NCBI GenBank assembly: GCA_937902985.1
Contig: CALFNG010000527.1
Coordinates: 1-33,562 of the forward strand
Source of the DNA: an uncultured Myxococcales bacterium
GTDB taxonomy: Bacteria > Myxococcota_A > Polyangia > Polyangiales > Polyangiaceae
Reading direction: 5' to 3'
DNA: 33,562 nucleotides
This document shows positions 22,676-29,574 of the stretch, in pieces. The translations under genes were made by a program, and so were the position numbers. The notes beneath the pieces are model-generated. The model worked only from the letters and a program-made list of their open reading frames with translations, was not told the DNA's origin and made no database searches. Position 1 is the first letter of the stretch, and every line of letters starts with the position of its first letter.

Positions 22676-23107
<432 letters not shown>

Positions 23108-23108
23108 C

Positions 23109-23594
23109 TCAGAAACCAGCGTCAGCGAGCGCGCGCGAGAGCCCGACCATCTCGATCGCCGTGACGGCCGCGTCCCACCCCTTGTTGCCGGCCTTCGTGC
23201 CGGCCCGCTCGATCGCCTGTTCGATGGTCTCGGTGGTCAAGACGCCGAAGACGACGGGCACGTCGCTCGATTGCGCAGCGGCCGAGAGGCCCCCGGCGGC
23301 TTCGCCGGCGACGTAGTCGAAGTGCGGGGTCGCGCCGCGGATCACGGCCCCCAGCGCGATGACCGCGTCGACCTTCTTCGACGCGGCGAGCCGGCGGGCG
23401 ATGAAGGGCAGCTCCCACGCGCCGGGGACGCGGACCACCGTCACGCCGTCGCTCTGCGCGCCGTGCCGAGCGAGCGCGTCGAGGGCGCCTTCGACGAGGC
23501 GATCGACGATGAAGTGGTTGAAGCGGCTCGCGACGATCCCGAACCTCGCCCCTTTGGGCACCACGAGGCTGCCTTCGATCACGTGTGTTGTCAT
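23109..23594 (-). CDS. ribH: 6,7-dimethyl-8-ribityllumazine synthase
   Basis: A 161-residue enzyme that joins 3,4-dihydroxy-2-butanone 4-phosphate to 5-amino-6-ribitylamino-uracil, the penultimate riboflavin step. ATG 23594 (Met-Thr-Thr-His-Val) gives the usual length; an upstream in-frame start would add a charged non-conserved 20-residue tail. Conserved motifs are [23 protein letters not shown] with the substrate loop, [14 protein letters not shown] (catalytic His in the His-Phe-Asp triad), PVVFGVLT and AGNKGWDAA near the end. The icosahedral or pentameric state cannot be told from sequence. It lies downstream of ribBX with a gap of about 75 nt and one base before nusB. Confidence 0.97.
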
Positions 23595-23669
23595 CGGTCG
23601 CTCATCTCGCTCATGCCGTTGCTCAGGCTGCTCGTCACGTTTCGCTCGTTCCACGCTCGCGCCACCGCT

Positions 23670-24839
23670 TCAGGTTCCCCTGGCCGTCGCCCCGGCCGAC
23701 TCCGGGGAGCGCAGCGGCACCCGCTCGACCACGTCGAGCCCGAACCCGTGGATGCCCGCCAGCTTACGCGGGTTGTTCGTCAAAAGCCGGATCTGATGGA
23801 GGCCGAGGTCGACCAGCACCTGCGCGCCCAGCCCGAACGCGCGAAGGGGCGGATCGGCCGACGGGAGCGACGGCGGCGCGTCGTTCGCCGCACGCCACGC
23901 GGCGAGCTCGGACCGCACGTCGCCGCGCGGCGCGATGTAGACGAGGGCGCCGTTCCCCGCGGCCTCGATCTGCGCGATGGCCTCGCGAAGGTGACGCCCG
24001 CCGTCGCGCGGCGTGGCGGCGAAGAGGTCGGCCACGATCGACCCCGTGTGCACGCGACACAGCGGCGGCGGACCGCCCTTGAGTGACCCCTTGACGAGCG
24101 CGACGAACTGCCGGTCGTCGATGGTGGTCTCGTAGACCATGGCGCCCCACTCGGTGCCCGTCTGGTCGAGCGTCATCACCGACTCCGACGTCCGGCGCAT
24201 CAGCCGCTCGGTGAAGAGCCGGTACTGGATCAGGTCTTCGATCGTCAAGATGCGAAGGCCGTGCTTTTGCGCGAACTGCTCGAGGTCAGGCATCCGGGCC
24301 ATCGAGCCGTCTTCGTTCATGATCTCGCAGATGACGCCCGCGGGGGTCAGGTCGGCGAGGCGCGCCAGATCGACGGAGCCCTCGGTCTGCCCGGTGCGAA
24401 CGAGGACGCCGCCCCTGCGCGCGCGGAGCGGGAACACGTGGCCGGGGGTGACGAGGTCTTCGGCGCGCGCTTCGGGGCTGGCGGCGACGCGGATCGTATG
24501 CGCGCGATCCGCGGCGCTGATGCCCGTGGTCACGCCCCGGCGGGCCTCGATGCTGACCGTGAACGCCGTGCCGAGCGAGGGACCGCTCCGGCCGGGAGGC
24601 TGCATCATCGGCAGCTTGATGCGATCGACCTGCTCCTCGTTCAGCGTCACGCAGATGAGCCCGCGGCCGTGTGTGGCCATGAAGTTGATCGCCTCGGGCG
24701 TCACGAACTGAGCGGCCATCGTGAGGTCGCCTTCGTTCTCGCGATCCTCGTCGTCTACGAGGATGATCATCTTGCCGGCCCGGACGTCGGCGATGGCGCC
24801 GGCGATGCGTTCGGTGAGTTTCGGATCGATCGTGCGCAC
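23670..24839 (-). CDS. ribBX: DHBP synthase fused to a degenerate GTP cyclohydrolase II-like domain (RibBX type)
   Basis: A 389-residue protein starting at GTG 24839; no ATG is available before Met24. Residues 1-205 are a full 3,4-dihydroxy-2-butanone 4-phosphate synthase with DDEDRENEGDL (29-39), THGRGLIC (56-63), RRGVTTGISAADRAHT (100-115) and GHVFPLRA. It converts ribulose 5-phosphate to the four-carbon riboflavin precursor. The C-terminal half resembles GTP cyclohydrolase II but lacks its chemistry: the three zinc cysteines of the Cys-X10-Cys-X-Cys site are Ser267, Arg278 and Gly280 here, and the arginine-rich QEGR.IG loop is gone. This matches the described RibBX variant, so the domain probably has no GTP cyclohydrolase activity. 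A separate RibA is needed elsewhere in the genome. It lies 8 nt downstream of ribE. Confidence 0.94.
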   Translation of the reverse strand: MRTIDPKLTERIAGAIADVRAGKMIILVDDEDRENEGDLTMAAQFVTPEAINFMATHGRGLICVTLNEEQVDRIKLPMMQPPGRSGPSLGTAFTVSIEARRGVTTGISAADRAHTIRVAASPEARAEDLVTPGHVFPLRARRGGVLVRTGQTEGSVDLARLADLTPAGVICEIMNEDGSMARMPDLEQFAQKHGLRILTIEDLIQYRLFTERLMRRTSESVMTLDQTGTEWGAMVYETTIDDRQFVALVKGSLKGGPPPLCRVHTGSIVADLFAATPRDGGRHLREAIAQIEAAGNGALVYIAPRGDVRSELAAWRAANDAPPSLPSADPPLRAFGLGAQVLVDLGLHQIRLLTNNPRKLAGIHGFGLDVVERVPLRSPESAGATARGT

Positions 24840-24847
24840 GGAGGGGC

Positions 24848-25465
24848 CTATTCTCGAGTCGACAGCAAGCGTGCAACGTAGCGCGCGATGAGGTCGACCT
24901 CCAGGTTGACGCGGCCGCCCGGCACCAGCGAGCCGAGCGTGGTCTTGCCGATCGTGTGGGGAATCAGCGTGACCTCGAAGACGTCGGCGCGGGCGGCGTT
25001 GACCGTCAGGCTCACGCCGTCGACCGCGATGGAGCCCTTCTCGGCGATGAACCTCGAGAGGTCCGCGGGGACGCGAAAGGCCATCCACACCGCGTCGCCC
25101 GCATCGCGCCGGTCGACCAGGGAGCCCACGCCGTCGACGTGGCCGGTCATCAGGTGACCCCCGAGCCGGTCGGCGGCTCGAAGAGCGCGCTCGAGATGAA
25201 CGCGGCTTCCCGCTTCGAGGCTGCCCAGGGTCGTTCGCGTGAGCGTCTCGGAGGTGGCGTCGATCTCGAAGCCGTCGCCCGTGATGGAGTCGACCGAAAG
25301 GCAAGCGCCGTTGACGGCGATCGACTCTCCGAGAACGAGCGGGCCGTCTTCGAAGTGTGCGCGAAGCGCCATACGCGCGCCGGTCAGGCTGGCTCCGGGG
25401 CCCTCGTCGCGCTTGGCCCGCACGGCAGCGACCGTTCCGGTGACGGCGACGAGGCCGGTGAACAT
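24848..25465 (-). CDS. ribE: Riboflavin synthase alpha chain
   Basis: A 205-residue enzyme that dismutates two 6,7-dimethyl-8-ribityllumazine molecules into riboflavin and a pyrimidine. ATG 25465 opens the hallmark Met-Phe-Thr-Gly-Leu-Val; an upstream in-frame start would extend into the divergent intergenic space. Two homologous lumazine-binding barrels follow: the first has GESIAVNGACLSV and the second begins near HLMTGHVDGVG with GSIAVDGVSLTV. The length is normal. As the first gene of the riboflavin operon it should mark the promoter, in the 81-bp gap shared with the divergent lipoprotein gene. That gap is too short for an FMN riboswitch and none is seen. This gene is named ribE in E. coli (ribC) and ribB in older Bacillus nomenclature. 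Confidence 0.96.
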   Translation of the reverse strand: MFTGLVAVTGTVAAVRAKRDEGPGASLTGARMALRAHFEDGPLVLGESIAVNGACLSVDSITGDGFEIDATSETLTRTTLGSLEAGSRVHLERALRAADRLGGHLMTGHVDGVGSLVDRRDAGDAVWMAFRVPADLSRFIAEKGSIAVDGVSLTVNAARADVFEVTLIPHTIGKTTLGSLVPGGRVNLEVDLIARYVARLLSTRE

Positions 25466-25546
25466 GGCGTTCGATGTAGTGACAAGGCCGCGCTCCGTCC
25501 AGACGGGCTTGCGAATCGATGGGGACCGTAGGACAATCAAGGGGCT

Positions 25547-26143: not shown

Positions 26144-27133
26144 TCAGCCGCCGAGGAGTTCGGCGGCTTCGACTGCGTGATACGTGAGAATCGCGTCGGC
26201 GCCTGCGCGGCGAATCGACGTCAAGACTTCCATCATCGCCCGGGGGTAGTCGATCATTCCCGCCGCGGCGGCGGCCTTGAGCATCGCGTACTCACCGGAC
26301 ACGTTGTAGGCAAAGAGAGGTAACGTCGTCTCTTCGCGTACCGCCCGGATCACATCGAGATAGGAAAGCGCCGGCTTCACCATCAGCATGTCGGCCCCCT
26401 CGTTCTCGTCGAGGCGGGCCTCGCGAAGGGCCTCGCGCGCGTTGGCGGGGTCCATCTGATAGCCCGCGCGGTCGCCGAACTTCGGCGCGCAGTCGGCGGC
26501 CTCGCGAAACGGACCGTAAAACGCGCTCGCGTACTTCACCGCATAACTGAGGAGGCTCGTCGCCTCGAACGCGTTCTCGTCGAGGGCGCGCCGGATCCGC
26601 GCCACGCGCCCGTCCATCATGTCGCTCGGGGCGACCACGTCGGCCCCGGCGCGCGCGTGCACGAGGGCCATTGTGGCCAGCACTTCGACGGTGGCGTCGT
26701 TGTCGACTTCGACCTCGCCGTCGCGGCGCGTCTTCAAGATGCCGCAATGACCGTGGTCGGTGTACTCATCGACGCACACGTCGGTCATGACGACGAGCCC
26801 CGGGGCCGCGCTCTTCATCTCGGCGACCGCCCGCGGGACCGGTCCGTCGGGGTCGAGGCCGCTCGAGCCGCGGGCGTCTTTCGTCTTCGGCAAGCCGAAG
26901 AGGATGACCGCGCCCAGCCCGCGACGCGTGGCCTCTTTCGCGATGCGTGCCGCGTCTTTGACCGGGAGCTGAAAAACGCCCGGCATCGTGCGGATCGGGG
27001 CGGGGGCGTCGAGGCCCGCGTGGAAGAAGAGCGGCCAGATGAAATCGCGCGGCGAGAGCGAGGTCTCGCGGACCAGCGCGCGGAGGCCGGGGGTGGCGCG
27101 GAGCCGCCGAGGACGGACGATGGGGAACGACAT
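26144..27133 (-). CDS. hemB: Delta-aminolevulinic acid dehydratase (porphobilinogen synthase)
   Basis: A 329-residue TIM-barrel enzyme that condenses two 5-aminolevulinate molecules into porphobilinogen, the second common step of tetrapyrrole synthesis. ATG 27133 begins Met-Ser-Phe-Pro-Ile-Val-Arg-Pro-Arg-Arg. The two Schiff-base lysines are Lys200 (YAVKYASAFYGPFR) and Lys253 (MVKPALSYLD). The zinc-binding segment reads DVCVDEYTDHGHCG: Cys120 and Cys130 are kept, but the middle Cys of the C-X-C-X7-C site is Asp122, a mixed metal site also met in other bacterial HemB subfamilies. DNDATVE and the APSDMMDGRV motif are intact. The active form is normally an octamer. It diverges from the lipoprotein/hemD pair. 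Confidence 0.96.
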   Translation of the reverse strand: MSFPIVRPRRLRATPGLRALVRETSLSPRDFIWPLFFHAGLDAPAPIRTMPGVFQLPVKDAARIAKEATRRGLGAVILFGLPKTKDARGSSGLDPDGPVPRAVAEMKSAAPGLVVMTDVCVDEYTDHGHCGILKTRRDGEVEVDNDATVEVLATMALVHARAGADVVAPSDMMDGRVARIRRALDENAFEATSLLSYAVKYASAFYGPFREAADCAPKFGDRAGYQMDPANAREALREARLDENEGADMLMVKPALSYLDVIRAVREETTLPLFAYNVSGEYAMLKAAAAAGMIDYPRAMMEVLTSIRRAGADAILTYHAVEAAELLGG

Positions 27134-27175
27134 CGTGACGAAGTGGAGATAGCACGGCCATGCGTAGGGGGCAGA

Positions 27176-28258
27176 ATGCGCGACTTGTCGAGCGCGCGCG
27201 CTCTTGCCATCGTGGTGAATCCCATGCCCCTCTGGCCTTACGCCTTGCCTTGCGTGGTTTTTTCGGCTGTCGTCGTAGCCTGCGGGAGTCGAACGGGGCT
27301 TTTGGTCCCGGGCGACGACAAGGGGAGTGGCGGCCCCGGTCCAGTGGGGGATGACGACTCCGGCTCCATGGTCGGACACCTCGATTCCGGAACGATCGAC
27401 GACCGATCCATCGAGCCGCCGCCGATTCGCGACGCGCTCCCCCCGCTCGACGTGACCGCTCCGGGCGACGCGTTCAACAACTGCCCCGATGCGGGCGCCA
27501 CGTTCGTCTACGTCGTGACCGAAGAGTTCGAGCTCATGAGCTTTTACCCGCCGACCGGCGAGTTCAAAGCCATTGGCCAGCTGAGTTGTTCGGTCAAGCC
27601 CAATAGCTCCGGCCCTCCGTTCACGCCGTTCTCGATGGCCGTCGATCGAAGTGGCGTCGCATACGTGCTCTACAACGACGGCGAGCTTTTCCGCGTGAGC
27701 ACCGCGACCGCGTCGTGCCGGAGCACCGCCTTCGTCTCGGGCCAGCGCGGGTTCGCCGACACGTTCGGCATGGGCTTCTCGCGCGACACGCAGGCCACCG
27801 GCGAGACCCTCTTCGTCGCGAGCGGCGGTGACAACCCAAGCATCGCCACCGTCAACACGACGACGTTCGGGCTGCGCGTCGTCGGCGCCCTCAATCCCCC
27901 CATCGACAGCGCCGAGCTTACCGGCACCGGCGCCGGCGATCTCTTCGCCTTCTATTCCACAAGGGGAGCAAACCCCTGCGACAACATGGACCCCAACACG
28001 ACCTGCACCGACTCGGCAATCGGCCAGATCGACAAGACCACCGGGCAGGTGACCAACCAGTCGGTGCTGTTCGGCAAGCCGCAGGGCACGGCCTGGGCCT
28101 TCGCGTTCTGGGGAGGCCAGTTCTATACGTTCACCGCGCCGGGCAGCGGAACGATCGTGTCGCGCTTCGATCCGAACGACGGTTCGGTCGTCGTCGTCGC
28201 CCAGCGCACCGACAAGATCGTGGGGGCCGGCGTCTCGACGTGCGCCCCGGCCCAGTGA
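27176..28258 (+). CDS. Putative lipoprotein with a beta-propeller-like repeat region
   Basis: A 360-residue protein if it starts at ATG 27176, which has an AGGGGG ribosome-binding site 4 nt upstream and adds Arg to the signal's front. ATG 27224 would give 344 residues with no positive charge. The signal ends at Ala-Cys36 (lipobox Val-Val-Ala-Cys), then a Gly/Asp-rich linker follows. From about residue 115 the chain has repeating strand patterns with DRSGVAYVLYNDGELFRV, GETLFVASGGDNPSIATV and GQFYTFTAPGSGTIVSRF, typical of a surface-exposed propeller. Paired Cys (about 284/291) could form a disulphide. No enzyme motif is seen. The TGA stop overlaps the GTG of the next gene by 4 nt, so translational coupling with the hemD fusion is likely. 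Confidence 0.78.
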   Translation: MRDLSSARALAIVVNPMPLWPYALPCVVFSAVVVACGSRTGLLVPGDDKGSGGPGPVGDDDSGSMVGHLDSGTIDDRSIEPPPIRDALPPLDVTAPGDAFNNCPDAGATFVYVVTEEFELMSFYPPTGEFKAIGQLSCSVKPNSSGPPFTPFSMAVDRSGVAYVLYNDGELFRVSTATASCRSTAFVSGQRGFADTFGMGFSRDTQATGETLFVASGGDNPSIATVNTTTFGLRVVGALNPPIDSAELTGTGAGDLFAFYSTRGANPCDNMDPNTTCTDSAIGQIDKTTGQVTNQSVLFGKPQGTAWAFAFWGGQFYTFTAPGSGTIVSRFDPNDGSVVVVAQRTDKIVGAGVSTCAPAQ

Positions 28259-29574
28259 GCGCGCGGAGCGGCGTCGTCGCCTTCGTCGGCATCGGGCCCG
28301 GCGATCCCGCCCTGCGCACGGAGCGCGCTTCGCAGCGGATCGCCGCGGCCGACCGGATCTTCGAAGACGACGTGCCCGCGGCGACCCTGGTCGAGCTCGC
28401 GCGCGCCGGCCAGCGCGTCGTGCGCATGGTGGCCGGCGATCCCCTCGAGTCCCCGGCGATCGTGGCGCGCGCGATCGCCGTCGCGACCGCGGGCGTGGCG
28501 ATCGAAGTCGTGCCGGGAGTCGGGGCCGGGAGCGCCGCTGCGGCCTTCGCCGGGGCGCTCGGGCGGGCGGTTCGCGTTCCGGCGGCCGAGCTGCCCGCGG
28601 CCCTGGCCCGCGAAGCGTCGGACGCGATCGTCACGCTGGTCCTTCACGCCGGGTCGCCGCTGCAGCGGGTCGTCGTCGCGCCGGCGGCGCTCGCGGCCGA
28701 GTTCGACCTCGAGGGCGCCGATGTGATCGTGGCGTTTGGTGCCCCCAACGACGCCCTCCGTTGGGCCGAGCGCCGCCCTCTCTTCGGTAAGCGCATCCTG
28801 GTCACCCGCGCCAAGGAACAAGCCGGCGGAACGGCGGCGCTGCTCCGCGACTGCGGGGCCGAGCCGGTCGTCGTGCCCACGATCGAGCTCCATCCGCCGA
28901 GCGATGCGGCCCCGCTCGCTCGCGCACTCGACGCCCTCCGCGCGGGCGCGTACCGGTGGGTCGCCTTCACGAGCGCGAACGGCGTCGAGCACACCTGGGA
29001 AGCGCTCGCCGCGGCCGGGGGCGACGCGCGCGCTTTTGGTCCCGCGCGAATCGGCGCGATTGGCCCGGCCACCGCGCGCGCCCTCGAGCGGCGAGGCCTC
29101 CGGCCCGATGTCGTGGCGACCGAGTTCCGCGGCGAGCTCCTGGCCGAGGCGATGCTCTCGGCGATCCGGTCCGAAGGCCAAAGCGCGCCCCGCGTGCTCA
29201 TCGCCCGGGCCGCCAAGGCGCGCGACGTGTTGCCCGACGCCCTGCGCGAAGCGGGGTGCGAGGTCGATGTCGTCGCCGCGTACGAGACCCGTCCGCCCTC
29301 TCCGCCGGCTGTCGAAGACTTGCTGCGCGAGCTCGAGGGAGGCCGCCTCAACGCCGTGACCTTCACGTCGAGCAGCACGGTCGAGAACCTCTGTGACTTG
29401 CTCGGCGCGCGGGCGAGCGAGCTCCTCGGTCGCGTCCGCGTCGCCAGCATCGGCCCGATCACCACCGCCACGGCGGCCGCACGGGGCCTCCGGGTCGACG
29501 TGACGGCCGGCGAGTACACGGTGCCAGGGCTCGTCGAGGCGTTGGTGGCGAGTTATGCGGGTTATTCGAGTTAA
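28255..29574 (+). CDS. hemD: Shortened SUMT-like domain fused to uroporphyrinogen-III synthase
   Basis: A 439-residue fusion starting at GTG 28255, which shares 4 nt with the previous stop. An alternative GTG lies 15 nt upstream. The C-terminal half (from about residue 178) is uroporphyrinogen-III synthase (HemD), which closes hydroxymethylbilane with ring-D inversion: GKRILVTRAKEQA, then VAFTSANGVE, IGPATARALERRG and a late AVTFTSSSTVENL. The N-terminal half resembles uroporphyrinogen-III C-methyltransferase (CobA/SUMT): FVGIGPGDPAL (10-20), AGDPL and EVVPGV...AAAA. It spans about 165 residues rather than about 240. It has lost the conserved Arg-Ala-Gly-Arg-His-Ser-Leu-Pro-Gln block and the Phe-Val-Phe-Gly-Arg-Gly loop, so methyl transfer is doubtful. 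It lies close to hemB but on the other strand. Confidence 0.9.
   Translation: MSARSGVVAFVGIGPGDPALRTERASQRIAAADRIFEDDVPAATLVELARAGQRVVRMVAGDPLESPAIVARAIAVATAGVAIEVVPGVGAGSAAAAFAGALGRAVRVPAAELPAALAREASDAIVTLVLHAGSPLQRVVVAPAALAAEFDLEGADVIVAFGAPNDALRWAERRPLFGKRILVTRAKEQAGGTAALLRDCGAEPVVVPTIELHPPSDAAPLARALDALRAGAYRWVAFTSANGVEHTWEALAAAGGDARAFGPARIGAIGPATARALERRGLRPDVVATEFRGELLAEAMLSAIRSEGQSAPRVLIARAAKARDVLPDALREAGCEVDVVAAYETRPPSPPAVEDLLRELEGGRLNAVTFTSSSTVENLCDLLGARASELLGRVRVASIGPITTATAAARGLRVDVTAGEYTVPGLVEALVASYAGYSS

Follow-up and report, generated by a model that had tools for sequence, protein, structure and literature searches.

A hemD gene with a shrunken, almost certainly inactive SUMT domain held under purifying selection in myxobacteria

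Results

A shrunken SUMT-like domain fused to a complete HemD

The window, a 33,562-nucleotide stretch of DNA from a myxobacterial draft genome in 563 contigs (G000), carries a hemD gene whose product begins with a SUMT-like methyltransferase domain (Table 1). The stop codon of an upstream lipoprotein-like gene and the start of hemD overlap by four bases (GTGA), and the true start of the neighbouring hemB probably lies within its open reading frame. The lipoprotein-like gene has no Pfam match. Homologues of it lie 5' of hemD at 20 loci including the window (19 further ones), where the SUMT part is dead in 13 cases, shrunken in five and absent in two; no homologue was found at the 18 intact-SUMT loci having at least 400 bp of upstream sequence. 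Elsewhere in the window (22676-25540, reverse strand) is a riboflavin cluster with lumazine-binding, RibBA-type, lumazine synthase and NusB genes.

Table 1 Features of the hemD locus (window coordinates)
Feature	Position	Strand	Remarks
hemD with N-terminal, almost certainly dead, SUMT domain	28255..29574	+	GTG start, 439 aa
Shrunken SUMT-like domain, residues 1-174	28255..28776	+	Alignment and AlphaFold model
HemD (uroporphyrinogen-III synthase) domain, residues 175-439, complete	28777..29571	+	HEM4 profile, model
VGIGPGD loop, kept	28285..28305	+	
First deletion junction, VGKRxG...Q segment of intact SUMTs missing	about 28360..28383	+	
RMVAGDP in place of RLKGGDP	28423..28443	+	Arg of NirE R100 kept, Lys of K102 replaced by Val
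LESPAIVAR in place of FIFGRGAEE	28444..28470	+	Ala at the positions of NirE R111 and E114
Second deletion, Thr-His-Arg to Met-Gly part, second lobe	about 28552..28617	+	NirE R149 and M186
Trp170, linker to HemD	28762..28764	+	Kept in 51/51 intact and 30/36 dead domains
Upstream lipoprotein-like gene	27224..28258	+	
hemB (ALAD)	26144..27379	-	Divergent, same pathway as hemD

Profile searches found a full-length HemD half, with Pfam HEM4 (PF02602) matching residues 193-428 (E 6.4e-64; 215.7 bits against a gathering score of 27.5) over profile positions 3-231 of 231. The N-terminal part matches TP_methylase (PF00590) in two pieces (E 3e-15; 57.2 bits against a gathering score of 27.8), which places it in the tetrapyrrole methylase superfamily, and it reaches 40.6 bits with the SUMT equivalog model TIGR01469, below the cut-off of 185 that would make it a SUMT/CobA. 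The gene product is predicted from its sequence to be a HemD of the haem pathway that makes uroporphyrinogen III. Codon-position G+C in the hemD genes of G000 and of its congener G002 (0.83/0.55/0.95) is that of a coding gene.

Losses within the SUMT-like domain

We used the window protein to search 38 related genomes and found matches in 36. We assembled an intact set of 51 N-terminal parts (247-250 residues; 319-432 bits against an intact-SUMT HMM built from 18) and a dead set (0-302 bits, lengths of 89 to 288 residues), 36 of which entered the residue comparison. With 174 residues, the N-terminal part of the window protein is 73-76 residues shorter than the 51 intact relatives, which bears out the first-pass annotation in describing a methyltransferase domain fused to HemD that had lost about 70 residues while keeping the VGIGPGD loop and, within RMVAGDP, the GDP of its AGDP motif. 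That annotation had also listed two conserved segments as lost. The VGKRxG...Q segment is truly deleted, whereas FGRG is not, since LESPAIVAR aligns to it without a gap and is therefore a replacement; the second deletion, in the second lobe, was absent from the list.

Alignment columns were tied to NirE through residue spacing with one constant offset, which fits eight of eight NirE residues checked (R100, K102, D105, I108, G110, R111, E114 and E115). On this basis V59, A68 and A71 of the window protein stand at NirE K102, R111 and E114, and the regions of R149 and M186 are deleted, so that none of the five catalytic and SAM/substrate residues expected of a SUMT/CobA remains. Of the NirE mutants, K102A is inactive and binds SAM less well, R111K and E114Q lose 94% and 84% of activity, and M186L loses 84% and binds SAM weakly (PMC4731766). 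Because these key residues are replaced or deleted, the SUMT domain is almost certainly dead, and the protein would not be an active bifunctional CobA-HemD fusion.

The same five positions (K102, R111, E114, R149 and M186, in that order) are kept in 1, 6, 4, 1 and 0 of the 36 dead domains of the order and in 51, 51, 51, 50 and 51 of the 51 intact ones, and the VGKR Lys occurs in 0/36 dead and 50/51 intact domains. Non-catalytic columns persist in the dead domains, among them NirE R100 (34/36), a Gly (33/36), an Arg (32/36) and the linker Trp. Two dead domains score as high as 272 and 302 bits (G060 and G093), yet lack the residues of NirE K102 and M186. In the dead SUMT part of locus L011 (G022), the former site of the VGKR segment holds a near-perfect run of GETGEA repeats.

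Both deletions recur in G002 (MAG BP9.bin63, a different assembly from the same genus), whose N-terminal part has 175 residues and whose protein is 63% identical to that of G000 over residues 5-435. Since the architecture is common to both, the shortening is not a sequencing error, the outcome that would have overturned the first-pass reading. Although the window comes from a draft genome, the probability of an assembly or sequencing error is negligible, given the identical architecture in another assembly, the single open frame and the coding-type codon-position G+C. G123 has the first deletion alone, which suggests that the segments were probably lost step by step.

AlphaFold models of the window and G002 proteins have mean pLDDT values of 90.5 and 88.8, and the N-terminal domain is mostly confident. 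Residues 1-172 of the window model match the whole SUMT 2ybq with a Z score of 12.8 (166 residues of a 242-residue chain, rmsd 3.6), and 1s4d and CysG give similar results (range: Z about 12-13, 166-172 residues, rmsd 3.5-4.0); residues 178-437 match solved HemD structures with Z scores of 16-21. In this predicted model, which is biased towards the SUMT fold because the input alignments contained intact SUMTs, both lobes of the fold remain in miniature. Truncation from one end was ruled out, as the model covers both lobes and the missing pieces are internal.

Other SUMT genes in G000 and its relatives

The search for a separate CobA that the first-pass annotation had called for identified two other SUMT genes with an active site in G000, namely a separate SUMT of 275 residues on contig C256 (275 bits) and a second one, with a weak HemD half, in a cobalamin cluster on contig C549 (229 bits). 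Around the C256 gene, about 17 kb hold nitrite/sulfite-reductase domains, a HEM4 protein, a nitrite reductase and a molybdopterin oxidoreductase. All 18 separate SUMTs examined, both G000 ones included, carry the full active-site set, the VGKR position being K or R. In the C549 fusion (L041:7166-8668) the SUMT active site is kept and the HemD half scores 52-54 bits, and because that half is weak HemD may be the decaying partner there, a mirror image of the window protein. We also observed further HEM4 proteins in G000 at L238:5864-6991 (C256, 130 bits) and L239:2086-3009 (C104, 117 bits). The L238 reading frame ends within that of the nitrite reductase and recalls HemD-like nitrate-assimilation regulators, though the search found no DNA-binding domain. 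Contigs C317 and C549 place two tetrapyrrole methylase gene sets in one draft genome, one of which may derive from contamination (3.37%) or represent a second cluster.

A census of the order classed 150 of 183 genomes (the 33 unclassed being 13 without a match and the rest below floors near 130 bits for HemD and near 230 bits for SUMT). Among the matches listed, a second SUMT occurs in one of the 93 genomes with a fused SUMT of at least 230 bits, and a separate SUMT lies elsewhere in 35 of the 57 others. In the 94 tree rows for which both traits are available, a separate SUMT accompanies 1/51 intact and 31/43 non-intact rows, the latter comprising 27/33 rows that keep the dead domain and 4/10 that have none. 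Relatedness weakens this link, since it leaves four independent pairs on supported branches in a kinship-aware and underpowered test (mean 2.5 in the same direction, 0 opposite, p 0.25); G138, G093 and G180 were left out of both the test and the 94-row count. For 24 genomes of the siroheme-enzyme survey described below the location of the separate SUMT is listed, and in 23 of these a siroheme-enzyme or Met8-type domain lies no more than about 20 kb away (G095 being the exception, and G092 and G127 falling outside the 24). Redundancy is not always visible, because six genomes with a dead domain, several of them incomplete, show no other SUMT (G002, G139, G140, G104, G160 and G060).

Siroheme enzymes follow intact SUMTs

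We then looked for the siroheme-dependent nitrite/sulfite reductase domain NIR_SIR (PF01077) in 52 genomes picked by SUMT state. It was present in all 36 genomes with an intact SUMT (26/26 that have a separate SUMT but yielded no intact fusion, 10/10 with an intact fusion) and in 1/16 genomes that yielded no intact SUMT (1/7 that keep a dead domain, 0/9 without the domain). The exception, G138, has siroheme enzymes and no intact SUMT found in a fragmented assembly of 810 contigs. No siroheme enzyme was found in the other six keepers of a dead domain, the same six named above; a negative result from a draft genome is no proof of true absence. We note that four genomes without a SUMT part (G013, G096, G118 and G164) were classed from the census alone, and that the fused part of G001 is undefined where its contig ends. 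The presence of siroheme enzymes in one genome out of seven indicates that a dead domain alone does not accompany siroheme use.

These results bear on what the domain could do. The GPGD loop, the GDP motif and the Arg of NirE R100 are still present, as they might be if the domain worked as a SUMT or as some other tetrapyrrole methylase, a reading that is nonetheless extremely improbable: the active-site Lys, two Arg, Glu and Met are gone along with two segments, the SUMT score stands far below its cut-off, and siroheme enzymes are missing in six of the seven genomes where a dead domain is the sole SUMT found. The earlier judgement that the domain is unlikely to methylate is well supported by the replaced or deleted residues, by the separate SUMTs and by the lack of siroheme enzymes in 15 of the 16 genomes that yielded no intact SUMT.

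The first-pass annotation had suggested instead that the domain binds substrate, SAM or a partner and regulates flow between haem and sirohaem. As a regulatory pseudoenzyme it would bind SAM, uroporphyrinogen III or the separate SUMT; SUMTs are dimers (PMC7018833), which would allow a dead domain to associate with a live one, and the higher share of separate SUMTs in rows that keep the dead domain (27/33, against 4/10) fits such a partnership. We consider this very unlikely, however, as the losses fall on the very residues that bind SAM and uroporphyrinogen III, and six genomes in which neither an intact SUMT nor a siroheme enzyme was found, G002 among them, keep the domain. Retention in genomes that yielded no siroheme enzyme disfavours a haem/sirohaem switch as the general job of the domain.

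Purifying selection on the dead domain

An open frame is no proof of function here, because the HemD downstream needs the frame to stay open; we rejected it as evidence and turned to selection at the codon level, using a pairwise maximum-likelihood codon model with F3x4 frequencies, in which for saturated dS only the likelihood ratio (LR) and position-wise differences are usable. In genera g5, g21 and g44 the dead domain has omega values of 0.002-0.18, and omega = 1 was rejected in 11/11 pairs (LR 33-179). For G000 and G002 omega = 1 was likewise rejected (LR 44.7), with saturated dS making the omega value itself unreliable. Differences between these two at codon positions 1/2/3 are 0.38/0.28/0.45 in the dead domain and 0.22/0.16/0.49 in HemD, and as both are shrunken their differences postdate the shrinkage. 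The domain changes faster than HemD in this pair (52% against 70% identity). In 14/14 intact pairs similarity in the SUMT part equals or exceeds that in HemD; the same is true of 4/12 dead pairs, all four from g5, where the dead domain has 79 invariant columns, 53 of them matching the intact consensus and 23 carrying residues present in fewer than 20% of intact SUMTs. Constraint on the dead domain, as read from these codon comparisons, is genuine though relaxed (in g5 about as strong as on HemD) and supports a non-catalytic job for the domain.

In a HemD tree of 100 rows, G000 falls in a 22-row clade (SH-aLRT 98 in a quick search) whose SUMT parts are dead but full-length in 14 rows, shrunken in five, absent in three and intact in none; L037 was dropped from the trees, and L101, L105, L113 and L115 have no state because of contig ends. 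Intact and non-intact states change 13 times on the best tree, and supported branches of a wider tree force at least three changes of the dead label; the count of independent inactivations inside the order is uncertain. Among the 45 non-intact rows, 13 are shrunken and 10 lack any SUMT part, and HemD can thus manage without the SUMT domain.

The main rival to a structural role is that the domain is a plain vestige, a roleless SUMT remnant in which deletions must spare the HemD frame and start signals and constraint acts only against misfolding. Shrinkage or absence of the SUMT part in 13 and 10 of the 45 non-intact rows, dead-part lengths that run from 288 down to 89 residues, and the faster change of the domain in the window's own genus all fit this view, and purifying selection could act solely against misfolding. 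We nevertheless regard a vestige as the less likely reading, because omega is well below 1 or omega = 1 is rejected in 12/12 dead pairs and in 11/11 actinomycete pairs (see below), because the g5 domain is about as slow as HemD and fixes residues rare in intact SUMTs, and because entire clades retain the dead domain.

Inactive SUMT domains in Actinomycetes

We also compared 80 loci from named genomes. In the class Actinomycetes, 48 of 49 fusions lack the active-site set. The exception, L204, comes from a record titled as a Bifidobacterium breve MAG, has an Acidimicrobiia-type hemD that groups with L179, and is probably a mislabelled bin. Intact SUMT parts are found in 28 of the remaining 31 loci, the other three being the myxobacterial L157 (dead) and L158 (no N-terminal part scored) and the Myxococcota locus L175, in which the Lys of VGKR is the only change. 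With TIGR01469 (cut-off 185), two actinomycete SUMT parts score 129 and 148 bits and an intact one 314. The actinomycete dead domain has omega values of 0.00-0.10 (11 pairs), and actinomycete HemD groups in a single clade (support 100) separate from that of the myxobacteria, which argues that the actinomycete inactivation was independent of the myxobacterial. Exactly one separate SUMT above the cut-off was found in 15/16 actinomycete genomes with a dead fusion (the exception being a draft Streptomyces), and exactly one SUMT, the fused one by frame length, in 12/12 genomes with an intact fusion.

CobA-HemD fusions, first characterised in sulfur-dependent bacteria, are described as makers of precorrin-2 and counted in 3448 of 5525 Actinobacteria (PMC11237513), and a mycobacterial HemD is listed as 'methyltransferase/synthase' beside a separate cysG (PMC8192938).

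Discussion

Taken together, we favour an explanation, to which we give a probability of roughly 0.7 as a whole, in which the ancestor of the window gene was a CobA-HemD (SUMT-HemD) fusion whose SUMT half no longer has the catalytic and SAM/substrate residues and has become shorter through two internal deletions. The present protein would make uroporphyrinogen III without methylating it, and precorrin-2 for siroheme and cobalamin would come from the other SUMT genes of the genome, a redundancy that may have let the fused copy die. The residue losses, the deletions, the separate SUMTs and the constraint are seen in the sequences themselves; purifying selection on the dead domain suggests that it probably stays as a folded structural part of HemD, with a likeliest role in stability, solubility or dimer contact.

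What is new here is a recurrent, conserved pseudoenzyme. A search by title and abstract, with subscription literature mostly outside its coverage, returned no paper that treats the fused SUMT half as dead. More tentatively, and at slightly less than even odds, we suggest a broader scenario in which a SUMT encoded in a siroheme or cobalamin cluster took over and the fused half became a conserved pseudoenzyme with a positive job for HemD (dimer formation, stabilisation or holding the product, for example), independently in the myxobacteria, probably several times, and in the ancestor of the sampled Actinomycetes lineages; many CobA-HemD proteins would then be a HemD with a dead partner. If so, many of the Actinobacteria CobA-HemD proteins counted as bifunctional in PMC11237513 would be affected. 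The general pattern is of more interest than the single gene. A fused SUMT domain cannot be equated with SUMT activity, and about one live SUMT per genome makes predictions of siroheme and cobalamin pathways testable from sequence. If HemD requires the dead domain, the intact, dead full-length, shrunken and absent states found across the order form a natural series for studying what a pseudoenzyme domain contributes to a haem-pathway enzyme.

The window protein shares its domain order and complete HemD half with CobA-HemD fusions, intact ones of which occur among its relatives in the order, but its SUMT half is about 75 residues shorter and lacks the active site, and in G000 precorrin-2 would come from other genes. 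The HemD proteins of Actinomycetes (Streptomyces, Nonomuraea, Microbispora and others) likewise combine a dead SUMT part with a complete HemD, a separate SUMT and purifying selection, although their dead SUMT is nearly full length, at 224-255 residues. Compared with NirE (2ybq), 1s4d and CysG, whose whole two-lobed fold is matched by the N-terminal part of the window model, the window domain lacks the active site and internal units of both lobes. Finally, in the system described in PMC11162112 a tetrapyrrole enzyme domain has likewise been kept after loss of activity; there the dead half is HemD, with a DNA-binding domain attached, whereas in the window protein SUMT is the half that appears dead and HemD the half that is kept.
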